64,000 bases of DNA, taken from assembly GCA_016278325.1 (NCBI GenBank), contig JADQCB010000016.1, forward strand, positions 124,001 through 188,000, read 5' to 3'. A program made the position numbers and the translations under genes. The notes below the pieces were generated by a model. It did not search any database. It saw only the letters and a list, made by a program, of their open reading frames with translations, and had not been told where the DNA came from. Of the stretch, positions 28,220-42,514 are shown piece by piece. Source of the stretch: Actibacterium sp. (lineage in GTDB: Bacteria > Pseudomonadota > Alphaproteobacteria > Rhodobacterales > Rhodobacteraceae). The first letter of the stretch is position 1. Each line of letters starts with the position of its first letter.

Positions 28220-30115
28220 CTATCGCCCGACAGGGTAACCCAATTCTTTCAGCGCGTCTGCGATTTCATCGAGGATCGCCGGGTCGTCGATCGTGGCGGG
28301 CATCTTGAAATCCTCGCCATTGGCGATCCTGACCATCGTGGCGCGCAAGATCTTGCCCGAGCGGGTCTTGGGCAGACGATCGACCACGCAGGCCAGCTTG
28401 AACGCGGCAACGGGGCCGATCTGGTCGCGGATCATCGCGACGCATTCACGGGTGATTTCCTCATGCGGGCGGTTCACGCCCTTGGTCAGGCATATGAAAC
28501 CCAGCGGAAGATTGCCCTTCAACTCATCCGCGACACCGATCACGGCGCATTCGGCCACGTCGGGATGGTTGGCCAGCACCTCTTCCATGCCGCCGGTCGA
28601 CAGGCGGTGCCCGGCCACGTTGATCACGTCGTCGGTGCGCGCCATGATGTAGAGATAGCCGTCTTCGTCGATATGGCCTGCATCGCCGGTTTCATAATAG
28701 CCGGGGAAATGGTCCAGATAGGATTTTCGAAACCGGTCCTCGGCGTTCCACAGCGTGGGCAGCGTGCCCGGCGGCAGCGGCAGCTTCACCGCCACCGCAC
28801 CCAGCGTGTCCGGCCCGACCGGCTTGCCCGAGTCATCGAGGATCTGCACATCGTATCCCGGCATCGGCACGCCGGACGAGCCGATCTTGACCGGCATCCG
28901 TTCCAGCCCCATCGGGATCGCGGTGATCGGCCATCCCGTTTCGGTCTGCCACCAGTGATCGATCACCGGCACCTTGAACTGATCCTGCGCCCAGTGGATC
29001 GTGTCGGGATCGGCCCGTTCGCCCGCAAGATAGAGCACGCGCAGACAGCTGAGGTCGTATTTCTTCACGAACTCGCCCTTGGGATCCTCGCGCTTGATCG
29101 CGCGAAAGGCCGTGGGGGCGGTGAAAAAGCTGCGCACATTGTGGTCCCGGATCACCCGCCAGAAGGTGCCGGCATCGGGGGTGCCCACCGGCTTGCCCTC
29201 GAACACGACGCTGGTGTTGCCGTGGATCAGCGGGGCATAGGCGATGTAACTGTGACCGACCACCCAGCCCACGTCGGAGGCGGCCCAGAAAACCTCGCCC
29301 GGATCCACGTTGAAGATGTTCTTCATCGTCCAGTTGAGCGCCACCAGATGCCCGCCCGTGGGGCGGACCACACCCTTGGGCTGGCCGGTGGTGCCGGATG
29401 TGTAAAGGATATAGACGGGGTGGTTGCCCTCGACCGGGACGCATTCGGCCGGCGCCACACCGTATTGGAAGCCGTGCCAGTCGTAATCGCGGCCGTCTTC
29501 CAGTTGGGCGACCTCCTGCTCGCGCTGGAAGATCACGCAGAAATCCGGCTGATGGCTGGATTGTGCCAGCGCGCCGTCGAGCAGCGGCTTGTAATGCACG
29601 ACCCGGCCCGGCTCGATCCCGCAGGAGGCCGCGATGATCGCCTTGGGCCGGGCATCGTCGATGCGCACCGCCAGTTCATGGGCGGCAAAACCGCCGAACA
29701 CGACGGAATGGATCGCGCCCAGCCGGGCGCAGGCCAGCATCGCTTCGATCGCTTCGGGCACCATGGGCATGTAGATGATGACGCGATCGCCCTTTTCGAC
29801 ACCCTTGGCCCTGAGCGCCCCGGCCAGGCTGGCCACGCGATCGCGCAGTTCGGCAAAGGTGATTTCATGTGTGCTGTGGGTCACCGGGCTGTCATGGATC
29901 AGCGCCACCTGGTCGCCACGGCCATTTTCCACATGGCGATCCACCGCATTCCAGCAGGTGTTCACCAGCCCGTCGTTGAACCATTCGTAAAGCGGCGCGT
30001 TTTCATCGAACAGGGCCCGGGACGGAAAGCGATGCCATTCGATCGCCCGGGCTGCCTGCATCCAGAATCCCTCGGGGTCGGCCTTCCAGGCTTGATACAT
30101 GTCAGCGTAGCTCAT
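28220..30115 (-). CDS. prpE: Propionyl-CoA synthetase
   Basis: 631-residue acyl-adenylate-forming enzyme that activates propionate to propionyl-CoA. The N-terminal ACAS domain has the SYADMYQAWKADPEGFW start; the ATP loop is YTSGTTGQPKGVVRPTGG near 237; DHWWQTETGWPI near 390 and YETGDAGHIDEDGY near 485 are typical of PrpE rather than AcsA; the C-terminal KTRSGKILRATM carries the lysine that is acylated in regulation of the family. GGAGGAGGG precedes the ATG. The upstream region has a cluster of TTTGCAAA-type sites (30209-30298), which suggests control by a short-chain acyl-CoA regulator. Confidence 0.93.
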   Translation of the reverse strand: MSYADMYQAWKADPEGFWMQAARAIEWHRFPSRALFDENAPLYEWFNDGLVNTCWNAVDRHVENGRGDQVALIHDSPVTHSTHEITFAELRDRVASLAGALRAKGVEKGDRVIIYMPMVPEAIEAMLACARLGAIHSVVFGGFAAHELAVRIDDARPKAIIAASCGIEPGRVVHYKPLLDGALAQSSHQPDFCVIFQREQEVAQLEDGRDYDWHGFQYGVAPAECVPVEGNHPVYILYTSGTTGQPKGVVRPTGGHLVALNWTMKNIFNVDPGEVFWAASDVGWVVGHSYIAYAPLIHGNTSVVFEGKPVGTPDAGTFWRVIRDHNVRSFFTAPTAFRAIKREDPKGEFVKKYDLSCLRVLYLAGERADPDTIHWAQDQFKVPVIDHWWQTETGWPITAIPMGLERMPVKIGSSGVPMPGYDVQILDDSGKPVGPDTLGAVAVKLPLPPGTLPTLWNAEDRFRKSYLDHFPGYYETGDAGHIDEDGYLYIMARTDDVINVAGHRLSTGGMEEVLANHPDVAECAVIGVADELKGNLPLGFICLTKGVNRPHEEITRECVAMIRDQIGPVAAFKLACVVDRLPKTRSGKILRATMVRIANGEDFKMPATIDDPAILDEIADALKELGYPVGR

Positions 30116-30446
30116 GATGTCCCTCCTCCGGAATGTGCCCGTTCTTAGGCAGTCGCCGGGTTTCAGGCAACGATGTTACCGATCACAAGCTTCGTGCCGA
30201 AGCAATTATTTGCAGATATTTGCGCTCCGGCACAGCAAAGTTTTGCAAACCATGTGAATAATCTGCGTGAGCCGTGAAAATCGGGGATGATTTGCAAATT
30301 CCGGCGCGCCCTCCTGGATGGCGCGGCGGATGACGCGTTTACGACCTGCGCCTGGTCGAAAATCTGCGCGAAATCCTACCCGGCCCGTGTCATCGTATCA
30401 TCCAGGAGGCGGCATTTCGCCCTTCCACCAAGAGGATTGCGTTGCC
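30116..30446. other. Intergenic region between prpE and a small downstream gene candidate
   Basis: 331 bases. The prpE-proximal half holds its ribosome-binding site and the TTTGCAAA cluster. The other half, before the small candidate gene at 30447, has no recognisable promoter boxes, RNA gene or repeat. Confidence 0.5.
30209..30298. promoter_or_regulatory. Cluster of TTTGCAAA-type sites upstream of prpE
   Basis: Perfect TTTGCAAA octamers lie at 30242-30249 and 30291-30298. Half-matches TTTGCAGA (30209), TTTGCGCT (30219) and ACAGCAAA (30232) join them, giving two pairs with centres 10 bases apart. The block is 95-185 bases before the prpE start codon. ScfR-family regulators such as PccR of Rhodobacter sphaeroides are reported to bind TTTGCAAA repeats at propionyl-CoA carboxylase genes, so PccR-like control of prpE is a good guess. 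The spacing differs from the reported repeat. Confidence 0.55.
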
Positions 30447-30503
30447 ATGGTCGACAAGAAACAGAAACCCGAGAAACCGGGCGCAAAGACGATCAAGAAG
30501 TAA
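30447..30503 (+). CDS. Candidate 18-residue Lys-rich small protein
   Basis: ATG to TAA, 18 codons, reading MVDKKQKPEKPGAKTIKK: seven lysines, highly charged and soluble. AGAGGA lies about 10 bases before the ATG, and a strong 12-base-stem terminator starts 12 bases after the stop, so a short dedicated transcript is plausible. It is too short to identify by family. It could be the end of a small regulatory RNA instead. The clean gene-like boundaries are the main support. Confidence 0.4.
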   Translation: MVDKKQKPEKPGAKTIKK

Positions 30504-30515
30504 TATCCGTTCCAC

Positions 30516-30548
30516 CGGTGCCGCCACTCTCCCCGTGTGGCGGCACCG
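30516..30548. terminator. Terminator between the 18-codon gene candidate and maeB (convergent)
   Basis: Perfect 12-base arms CGGTGCCGCCAC and GTGGCGGCACCG with a 9-base loop, followed on the plus strand by TTCTT. It begins 7 bases after the maeB stop on the other strand, so it may serve both transcripts, with the better U-tract on the plus strand. Confidence 0.75.
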
Positions 30549-30554
30549 TTCTTG

Positions 30555-32834
30555 TCAGCCGTATTGCGTCACCGGCATCCCTGCCAGCGCCGAGATGTTC
30601 AGCAGGCCCCGCGCGGTGATCGAGGGCGTGACGATATGCGCCCTGTTGCCCATTCCCATCAGGATCGGCCCGACCTCCAGCCCGCCTGCGCGCATCTTCA
30701 GGATATTGCGCACGCCCGAGGCCGCATCCGTATCGGCGAAGACCAGAACATTCGCGGCCCCTTGCAGGCGGGCGCCCGGAAAGATCCGTTCGCGCAGCAC
30801 CGGATCCAGCGCCGCGTCGACATGCATCTCGCCCTCATAGGCAAAATCGGGATCGCATGCCTTGAGCAGTTCCATCGCCGCCCGCATCCGCCGGCCCGAG
30901 TCGATGTCGAGATTGCCGAACTGCGAATGCGAGCAGAGCGCGATATTGGGGTCCAGCCCGAAGCGGCGCACATGACGTGCCGCGCCGATGACGGTTTGCG
31001 CGATCTGCTCGGGCGTCGGCATCGGGTGAACCTGCGTGTCGGCGACGAACAGGGGGCCGTCTTCGAGGATCATCAGCGATAGCGCCCCCACCGGGTGCAG
31101 CCCGTCCCGGCCAAGCACCTGTTCGATATATTTCAGATGCCACAGGTATTGCCCGAACGTGCCGCAGATCAGGCTGTCGGCCTCGCCGCGGTGGACCATC
31201 ACCGCGCCGATCGCGGTCGAGTTGGTGCGCATGATGGCCTTGGCCAGATCGGGGGTCACGCCCCGCCGGGCCATCAATTCGTGATAGGTGCCCCAGTAAT
31301 CGCGATAGCGGGGGTCGTTTTCGGGGTTCACGATCTGGAAATGCTCGTCGGGGCGAATCGTCAGGCCGGCCCTCTGGCTGCGCGCCTCGATCACCTCGGG
31401 GCGGCCGATCAGGATCGGCCGGTCGGTCATCTCCTCGACCATGGCCTGCGCGGTGCGCAGGATGCGCTCGTCCTCGCCCTCGGCAAACACGATGTTGCGC
31501 GCGGCCTGCCGGGCAGCGGCGAAAACCGGGCGCATGATAAGCGCCGAACGGAAGACCGATCCGTCCAGCCGCTCCTTGTAGGCTTTCATGTCCTCGATCG
31601 GGCGGGTGGCCACGCCCGAGGACATCGCGGCCCTTGCGACCGATGTCGCGACGACGCCCATGAGCCGCGGATCGAACGGTTTCGGAATCAGGTAATCGCG
31701 TCCGAAGGTCAGCTTTTCCTCGCTATAGGCGGCGGCGGCTTCGGCGCTTGTGGTCGCGCGCGCCAGCGCGGCGATCCCCTCGATGCAGGCGATCTGCATG
31801 GCGTCGTTGATCTCGGTCGCCCCCACGTCAAGCGCGCCGCGGAAGATGAACGGGAAACACAACACGTTGTTGACCTGGTTCGGATAATCCGAGCGGCCGG
31901 TGGCGATGATCGCCTCGGGCGCGACTTCGCGCACCGCATCGGGCATGATCTCGGGCGTCGGATTGGCCAGCGCGAAGATGATCGGGCGCGGCGCCATCTT
32001 CTCGACCATCCCGGGGCTCAGAACGTCCGGCCCCGAAAGCCCCAGGAACAGGTCGGCGCCGCCGATCACGTCATCCAGGGTTCGCAGTTCCGAGGCTTGC
32101 GCGAAGGCCGCCTTTTGCGGATTCATGTCCACCTGCCGGCCCGCGTGAACCAGCCCGTGAATATCGCAAAGCCAGACATTTTCGCGCTTCACGCCGAGTT
32201 TCAGCAACATGTTTAGGCAGGCGATGCCGGCCGCACCGCCGCCGGTCGAAACGATCTTGATGTCCTCGAACCGCTTGCCCGCCACGCGCAGCGCGTTGGT
32301 GGCGGCCGCGCCGACCACGATCGCGGTGCCGTGCTGGTCGTCGTGGAAGACGGGGATATTCATCCGCTCGCGGCAGATACGTTCGACGATGAAACAATCG
32401 GGGGCCTTGATGTCCTCCAGGTTGATCGCGCCAAAGGTGGGCTCCAGCGCGCAGACGATATCGGCCAGCCGTTCGGGATCGGATTCGTCGAGTTCGATGT
32501 CGAAGCAATCGATATCGGCGAATTTCTTGAACAGGACGGCCTTGCCCTCCATCACCGGCTTGCTGGCCAGCGCGCCGATATTGCCAAGACCCAGCACCGC
32601 GCTTCCATTGGTGACCACGGCAACCAGGTTGCCGCGCGTGGTGTAATCGGCTGCGGTTTTCGGGTCGTTGCGGATCTCGATACAGGCCTCGGCCACGCCC
32701 GGGGAATAGGCGCGCGCAAGATCGCGGCCATTGGCAAGCGGTTTGGTCGCGCGGATTTCCAGTTTTCCGGGCTTGGGGTGCGCGTGATAGTCCAGCGCCG
32801 CTTCGCGGGCGGATCGGTTCGTGGTGTCGGTCAT
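30555..32834 (-). CDS. maeB: NADP-dependent malic enzyme (MaeB, malic-PTA fusion)
   Basis: 759-residue enzyme that decarboxylates malate to pyruvate with NADP. N-terminal malic domain with [13 protein letters not shown] near 79 and the catalytic [10 protein letters not shown] near 168; NAD-binding domain with [12 protein letters not shown] near 200; then a phosphotransacetylase-like C-terminal domain from about 435 ([16 protein letters not shown] near 460), usual for MaeB and generally regulatory (acetyl-CoA inhibition). GGGAGGGG precedes the ATG at 32834. A perfect inverted repeat lies 17 bases upstream of the start. Divergent from the cdd-deo operon. Confidence 0.94.
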
Positions 32835-41866: not shown

Positions 41867-42514
41867 ATGCGGGTGCCATGGAAGCCGCCTTTCGGCGGGT
41901 CGAAAAGTCCGGACCGGGTTGCGCCGCGATCTGGCGGCCTGACGCAGGCAGCCGTGGTGGCGACGCCAGAGGGGTGGTGCCCGGTCGAACGGCTGGTCGC
42001 GGGGACGCTGGTGCTGACCTTCGACGCCGGGCTGAAACCCTTGCGTGGGGTGCAACGGCGGCAGATGTGGGCGCAAAAGGGCCCGAGCCCCGAACTGACC
42101 TGGCCGCTGGATGTGCCGCGCGGCGTGCTGGGCAACCGCTCGCCGGTGCTTTTGCCGCCCGATCTGAACCTCCTGGTCGAATCCGACCTTGCGGAACAGC
42201 TTTACGGCGACCCCTTTGTCCTGATCCCGATCAAGGCGCTTGACGGCATGCTGGGGATCGAACGGAAGCGCCCGGATGGCCCGCTGGAGGTGGTGAACCC
42301 GATCTTCGATACCGATCAGGTGGTCTTTGCAAACGGCGCGACTCTGGTGCATTGCCCGGCGGTGCCGGGCCAGACCGACGCGGCGTATAACCTGCTCCGG
42401 GGCAAGGCCGCGCGCGACGTGGCGCAGGATTTCGCCGCCAACGGTGCGGCCTCTTGTGACTCGTCTGTCCTGTCCGGTCAGGCCGCGCGCGCCGAAGGGG
42501 CAAAGCGGTCATAG
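41867..42514 (+). CDS. Hint_2-type domain protein with altered first block
   Basis: 215 residues. The Hint (Hedgehog/intein) core is recognised by VVATPEGWCPVERLVAGTLVLTFDAGLKPLRGV at the start, VPRGVLGNRSPVLLPPDLNLLVESD in the middle and YGDPFVLIPIKAL later. The position that holds the self-splicing cysteine in true Hint domains is not Cys here, so autoprocessing is doubtful. GAGG lies 7 bases before the ATG at 41867. The last 20 or so residues are unlike the family and run into an IS66 remnant, so the 3' end may have been replaced. Function of these small proteins is not known. Confidence 0.68.
   Translation: MRVPWKPPFGGSKSPDRVAPRSGGLTQAAVVATPEGWCPVERLVAGTLVLTFDAGLKPLRGVQRRQMWAQKGPSPELTWPLDVPRGVLGNRSPVLLPPDLNLLVESDLAEQLYGDPFVLIPIKALDGMLGIERKRPDGPLEVVNPIFDTDQVVFANGATLVHCPAVPGQTDAAYNLLRGKAARDVAQDFAANGAASCDSSVLSGQAARAEGAKRS

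Follow-up and report, generated by a model that had tools for sequence, protein, structure and literature searches.

Predicted ScfR-Type Control of Propionate Metabolism

In Rhodobacter (Cereibacter) sphaeroides, PccR is reported to control the propionyl-CoA carboxylase genes, pccB (Carter and Alber, 2015, as cited in excerpts of PMC12632250 and PMC10370305), and the regulator has been reported in such excerpts to activate genes of the methylmalonyl-CoA pathway. Deletion of pccR in R. capsulatus SB1003 led to poor growth on propionate, while deletion of a gene of the PccR group in Paracoccus denitrificans left growth and the ccr and icl reporters unchanged under the conditions tested (PMC10370305, excerpts). 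PccR of R. sphaeroides has a Trp at the position of Phe155 of Mycobacterium tuberculosis PrpR, a residue tied to the response to propionyl-CoA (PMC6765138, excerpts). That a propionate regulator controls propionate activation is in itself an old idea, since PrpR is described as governing prpE in E. coli, and comparable phenomena in Salmonella and M. tuberculosis (PMC6023979, excerpts).

Here we examined a 64-kb stretch of an Actibacterium genome (the window, referring to the whole stretch of DNA that was analysed) in which a cluster of ScfR-type boxes lies upstream of a probable prpE gene. The cluster is very probably a PccR operator of prpE, predicted from its sequence and that of its relatives to respond to propionyl-CoA and most likely to activate. 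A sequence-only reading had proposed ScfR/PccR-type control of prpE, and this proposal is supported by the presence of the regulator gene, by a motif shared with pccB and pccR, by the conserved position and spacing of the boxes, and by the co-occurrence of regulator and operator.

The Box Cluster and the prpE Promoter

Direct reading of positions 30209-30298 confirmed the two perfect octamers and three partial copies previously noted in the prpE promoter region, including the two close pairs 10 bases apart (starts 30209/30219 and 30232/30242). The features are given in Table 1. The spacers amount to 2 bases within each close pair and 41 bases between O1 and O2. The octamer TTTGCAAA at pccB of R. 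sphaeroides is reportedly the target of PccR, and two octamers are said to lie 4 bases apart there; this 4-base spacing does not appear in a consensus drawn from 24 pccB promoters in relatives. A small hairpin, GCTTCGTGCCGAAGC, is located at window positions 30189-30203, between O3 and the putative -35 element of prpE.

Table 1. Coordinates of the prpE gene, its predicted promoter elements and boxes (window positions), and of the PccR-type regulator gene (genome and contig position).
Feature	Position	Strand	Description
O1	30291..30298		perfect octamer TTTGCAAA, -183..-176 from prpE ATG
O2	30242..30249		perfect octamer TTTGCAAA, -134..-127 from prpE ATG, 49 bp from O1
half-site beside O2	30232..30239		ACAGCAAA (prpE strand: TTTGCTGT); centre-to-centre distance to O2, 10 bp
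half-site beside O3	30219..30226		TTTGCGCT, 10 bp from O3
O3	30209..30216		one-mismatch octamer TTTGCAGA (prpE strand: TCTGCAAA); distance to O2, 33 bp
putative -35 element	30165..30170	-	TTGCCT; CTTGC block conserved in 23-promoter alignment
putative -10 element	30142..30147	-	TAAGAA; 17 bp from -35; conserved gCcTAAc block
probable ribosome-binding site of prpE	30122..30129	-	GGAGGAGG; assigned from sequence; conserved in 23-promoter alignment
prpE	28220..30115	-	ATG at 30115; 631 aa; probable AMP-forming propionyl-CoA synthetase (propionate--CoA ligase)
PccR-type regulator	G000:C53:230407-231780		HTH PF01381, M78/IrrE-like PF06114 and ScfRs PF09856, all above cut-off

The gene downstream of the boxes is probably prpE, serving propionate activation. 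Its product has its best NCBIfam matches with PRK10524 (729.7 bits) and TIGR02316 (701.1 bits), both of which are propionate--CoA ligase models, at scores below their curated cut-offs of 955 and 827.4, respectively. The cut-offs for acetate--CoA ligase are exceeded by a separate gene of the same genome (C54:102273-104135), which makes prpE the most likely, though not certified, name. A plain sigma-70 promoter scan of positions 30100-30560 returned no promoter, and the core promoter was placed by conservation; on this placement, transcription would start approximately 20 bp before the ATG.

Two other modes of control were considered and set aside. An RNA element was rejected, as positions 29900-30700 gave no Rfam match at the gathering threshold. 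Control of a methylcitrate route was likewise rejected: the genome contains no prpD above cut-off (best match 6.5e-6) in a search that covered prpD alone among prpB, prpC, and prpD.

Box Density in the Window and the Genome

Sites with no more than one mismatch to the octamer number 10 in the window, compared with a mean of 10.21 in shuffled sequences. As this count equals the shuffled expectation, single near-matches provide no evidence, and they were dropped as support. Perfect octamers are found 17 times in the whole 3.25-Mb genome, and two of these precede prpE, one pccB, and one pccR; by arithmetic from the genome-wide count, about 0.005 would be expected in three 300-bp promoters together. 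Of 20,000 simulated 331-bp regions, drawn from an order-1 Markov chain fitted to this same promoter region, 4 contained at least two octamers. The homotypic cluster score reaches 53.1 at prpE, as against 15.1 for the runner-up within the 64 kb.

We also scanned the window with a weight matrix derived from 115 sites found upstream of 28 pccB and 30 pccR genes of other genomes, with neither prpE nor the Actibacterium genome included. The sites at 30291, 30242, and 30209 ranked first, second, and third in the 64 kb, and what the matrix adds is mainly A/T flanks, since its training sites were picked by their likeness to the octamer. In the Actibacterium genome, no two perfect octamers form a tight pair with a gap of 1-12 bases. 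The only other perfect octamer in the window (42326-42333) lies inside a reading frame and looks incidental.

Conservation of the Layout Among prpE Relatives

We compared 59 prpE loci of at least 68% identity, a set that includes the Actibacterium copy itself (L133) and two fragments without a true start (L155 and L160). At least one octamer is present within 300 bp upstream in 27 of these loci and at least two in 22, and the 47 more distant prpE loci have no octamer in the same interval. Across 79 usable prpE loci, the 300-bp stretches ahead of the gene hold 36 octamers in total, as against 7 for all the rest of the sequence (503,843 bases).

After removal of loci whose match starts after residue 5, 58 cleaned upstream regions were available, and the O1/O2 pair was identified in 23 of them, at a spacing of 49 bp (14 regions), 48 bp (6), 58 bp (2), or 50 bp (1). 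Each base of the TTTGC half-site located at +10 from O2 shows 83-96% conservation across the 23 promoters with a pair. In 21 of these promoters the best O3 match, which has 0-2 mismatches and usually reads TCTGCAAA, is found at a distance of 32-34 bp from O2. The half-site beside O3 is located outside the strongly conserved columns of this alignment. A genome of the same genus (G044) has kept both octamers at -183 and -134, and its 41-bp spacer matches at 16 of 41 positions. The same two positions are occupied in R. capsulatus SP108 (L037), in a layout identical to that of Actibacterium.

Searches of entire genomes also placed the pair before prpE. Two octamers 47-51 bp apart occur in 15 of 39 genomes that had been selected for carrying a prpE relative, once in each (reversed control, 0), and all but one of these 15 pairs precede prpE, the exception being L167. 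In the larger sample, a pair at 48-49 bp was detected in 116 of 395 family genomes, with 118 matches in total (reversed control, 0). Thirty of the 118 loci were read; 28 precede prpE, and L222 and L226 do not. Counting both samples, which overlap (at least four genomes share PccR gene coordinates), 42 of 45 pair loci are located before prpE, with the pair starting 162-264 bp upstream. One of the exceptions, L222, belongs to a genome with two such pairs (G172), and its pair, of the same spacing, lies approximately 80 bp before another acyl-CoA ligase-like gene.

Some octamer-free relatives contain a different element. In a survey in which the strand was misread in several rows (L133, L135, L141, and L143, which appear there without the octamers they do have), TTAGCGC-like palindrome halves were seen 79-119 bp before the start in seven octamer-free prpE promoters (L023, L026, L031, L032, L034, L142, and L145). 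These halves resemble what we take to be CceR sites, and prpE in these relatives may perhaps be under an alternative, CceR-like control.

The PccR-Type Regulator and Its Other Boxes

A search of the Actibacterium genome for the ScfRs domain gave a strong match at C53:231298-231768 (E 4.4e-70). The absence of a PccR orthologue had previously been named as a finding that would refute the proposal; the genome does encode such an ScfR protein, and it does so near pccB. A single transporter-like gene (identified by eye) separates the pccB-like gene from that of the regulator, all three being within 4.5 kb, and a pccA-like gene and methylmalonyl-CoA mutase (mcm, above cut-off) are found on the same 20 kb as the regulator. 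The names pccB and pccA are based on resemblance and neighbourhood, with pccB below the cut-off of its best model. The regulator aligns over 397 residues with M. tuberculosis PrpR structures and has a Trp at the position of MtPrpR Phe155, as judged from the alignment with residues counted by hand. The orthologue in R. capsulatus SP108 is 76% identical.

In the Actibacterium genome, an octamer is present before both pccB and pccR. The same is true of pccB in 26 of 30 distinct loci (Actibacterium included, two repeat-genome rows removed) and of pccR in 27 of 30 genomes. In 26 of these 27 genomes the pccR octamers start 17-61 bp ahead of the ATG, and in L113, where the start is uncertain, the distance is 97 bp; some of the octamers sit between plausible -35 and -10 elements. 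At pccB in relatives, the proximal box is a single octamer and the distal one a triple half-site.

The genome also encodes a second, weaker ScfR-like protein (P0002, C54:95506), with an HTH and a weak ScfRs domain. No M78 domain was seen in P0002, its likeness to PccR is distant, and no octamer occurs in the 20 kb around its gene. This gene is approximately 6.5 kb from the acetate--CoA ligase gene, and similar genes are approximately 300 bp apart in G055.

A further perfect octamer of the genome is located at C42:51182 (L013, 1501-1508), followed at 42 bp by a second TTTGCAAG, between a LysR-type gene and mmsA. The octamer lies approximately 80 bp upstream of mmsA, which encodes methylmalonate-semialdehyde dehydrogenase, on the route from valine to propionyl-CoA. 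It is possible that mmsA is another PccR target.

Co-occurrence of PccR and the Operator

PccR orthologues were called at E <= 1e-160, with the regulator minus its first nine residues as the search query (P0001), and were identified in 330 of the 395 family genomes. Of the 116 genomes with the pair, 115 carry an orthologue, as do 215 of the 279 that lack the pair (Fisher p 4e-10, without correction for kinship). The underlying 2 x 2 table was read from lists, and 45 PccR-negative genomes are those missing from the positive list. The pair is thus nearly always accompanied by PccR, and PccR is often found without the pair, which indicates that most of the family has lost the link, has it in degenerate form, or lacks it. 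In the one exception, G348 (locus L214), the pair is 264 bp before prpE and the sole PccR match is weak (7.1e-8). This would fit loss of pccR after the operator arose, an assembly gap, or use of the pair by another protein.

Proposed Mechanism and Competing Explanations

For this locus, we infer binding, ligand, activation, and transcription start. PccR would bind the three TTTGCAAA boxes, which relative to the predicted transcription start are located at about -160 (O1), -110 (O2), and -77 (O3), all upstream of the putative prpE core promoter, and in its propionyl-CoA-bound form would most likely activate prpE. PrpE would then supply the proposed ligand of PccR, which would make induction self-reinforcing, and the co-induced carboxylase would drain the PrpE product. 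The direction of control is deduced from box positions and the literature: the boxes at prpE and pccB lie upstream of the putative promoters and are therefore read as those of an activator, and the closeness of the pccR boxes to the ATG is read as autorepression. A wider picture may be drawn, although we regard it as speculative and rather doubtful as a whole. PccR might be a feed-forward controller of propionate entry in Rhodobacteraceae that activates prpE through a fixed three-box operator and pccB through a different operator, represses itself, and possibly controls mmsA, such that PrpE synthesis would be driven by the enzyme's own product for as long as the carboxylase lags behind.

The strongest competitor concerns the sign of control and would leave the operator as it is. 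PccR may bind the boxes but repress prpE, or act both ways, as it may do on its own gene, where the closeness of the octamers to the ATG (17-61 bp in 26 of 27 genomes) and the placement of some between plausible -35 and -10 elements suggest autorepression. All boxes of prpE, however, are upstream of its predicted core promoter, and likewise at pccB, and we therefore consider repression unlikely. The identity of the binding protein could also be mistaken, as ScfR proteins share sites; the PrpR of M. tuberculosis, which protects TTTGCAAA, binds the promoters of icl1 and ramB as well (PMC3420887, excerpts). The boxes might thus be bound by another ScfR-type protein, either P0002 here, with its HTH and weak ScfRs domain, or RamB or MccR in relatives, and G348 has the pair with one weak PccR match alone. 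This is nevertheless quite improbable, given that P0002 has no M78 domain, is distant from PccR, and has no octamer in the 20 kb around its gene, that the octamers mark pccB and pccR both here and in relatives, and that PccR accompanies the pair in all but one of 116 genomes.

A different target is less plausible still. The octamers are located between two divergent reading frames, and they could in principle serve the 18-aa frame at 30447-30503 instead of prpE, but 42 of the 45 pair loci precede prpE with the pair starting 162-264 bp upstream, and a coarse filter, which misread the strand in several rows, picked up the small ORF in 1 of 56 relatives. Such a role seems very remote. The frame itself is on the plus strand, is rich in Lys and Pro (MVDKKQKPEKPGAKTIKK), and has a clear relative (MGDKKSKPSKPGEKTVKK) upstream of the prpE gene of L031. 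Finally, the octamers might be AT-rich chance occurrences without function, as the equality of near-match counts with the shuffled expectation would allow. This we find barely credible, since the exact pair recurs in 116 of 395 genomes against none in the reversed control, nearly all loci read lie before prpE, and the prpE cluster is the top of the window. PccR acting as an activator at prpE thus remains our preferred explanation.

Implications and Comparison With Known Systems

If this prediction is true, the reported propionyl-CoA carboxylase regulon extends to the enzyme that makes propionyl-CoA, and a single ligand-sensing switch would govern both how a reactive intermediate enters and how it is removed. 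Being fixed in more than 100 genomes, the box geometry also lends itself to testing how spaced boxes are read by ScfR regulators, which have been little studied. Should prpE be off in the pccR mutant of R. capsulatus SB1003, its poor growth on propionate (PMC10370305, excerpts) would have a second cause.

Our literature search, whose coverage did not extend to the original article of Carter and Alber (2015), found no paper that ties PccR to prpE. Both words occur in PMC6023979 and PMC11362209, and no link is drawn in the portions of these papers available. As PccR papers, PMC7083601 and PMC11362209 were discarded, because in their available portions "PccR" refers to the promoters of ccrM and ccrC.

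Among ScfR systems, the Actibacterium locus most resembles PccR/pccB of R. sphaeroides, with which it shares the ScfR regulator near pccB, TTTGCAAA before pccB and pccR, and the pathway. It differs in its predicted target, which is prpE and hence the step that makes propionyl-CoA, and in having three boxes at 49 and 33 bp, in contrast to the arrangement at pccB of relatives. M. tuberculosis PrpR at prpDC and icl1 also belongs to the ScfR family, has perfect and imperfect TTTGCAAA boxes, and has propionyl-CoA as its proposed signal (PMC3420887 and PMC6765138, excerpts). By contrast, its boxes are 1 bp apart and serve the methylcitrate cycle in the same excerpts, whereas no prpD above cut-off was found here. 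RamB of P. denitrificans at the glyoxylate-cycle operon is likewise an ScfR activator with two boxes upstream, although with an 18-bp spacer and in another pathway; the likeness is one of layout, as described in excerpts of PMC10370305. What appears to be new at this locus is the predicted prpE target and the conserved operator layout within a known regulon, and not a new kind of system.
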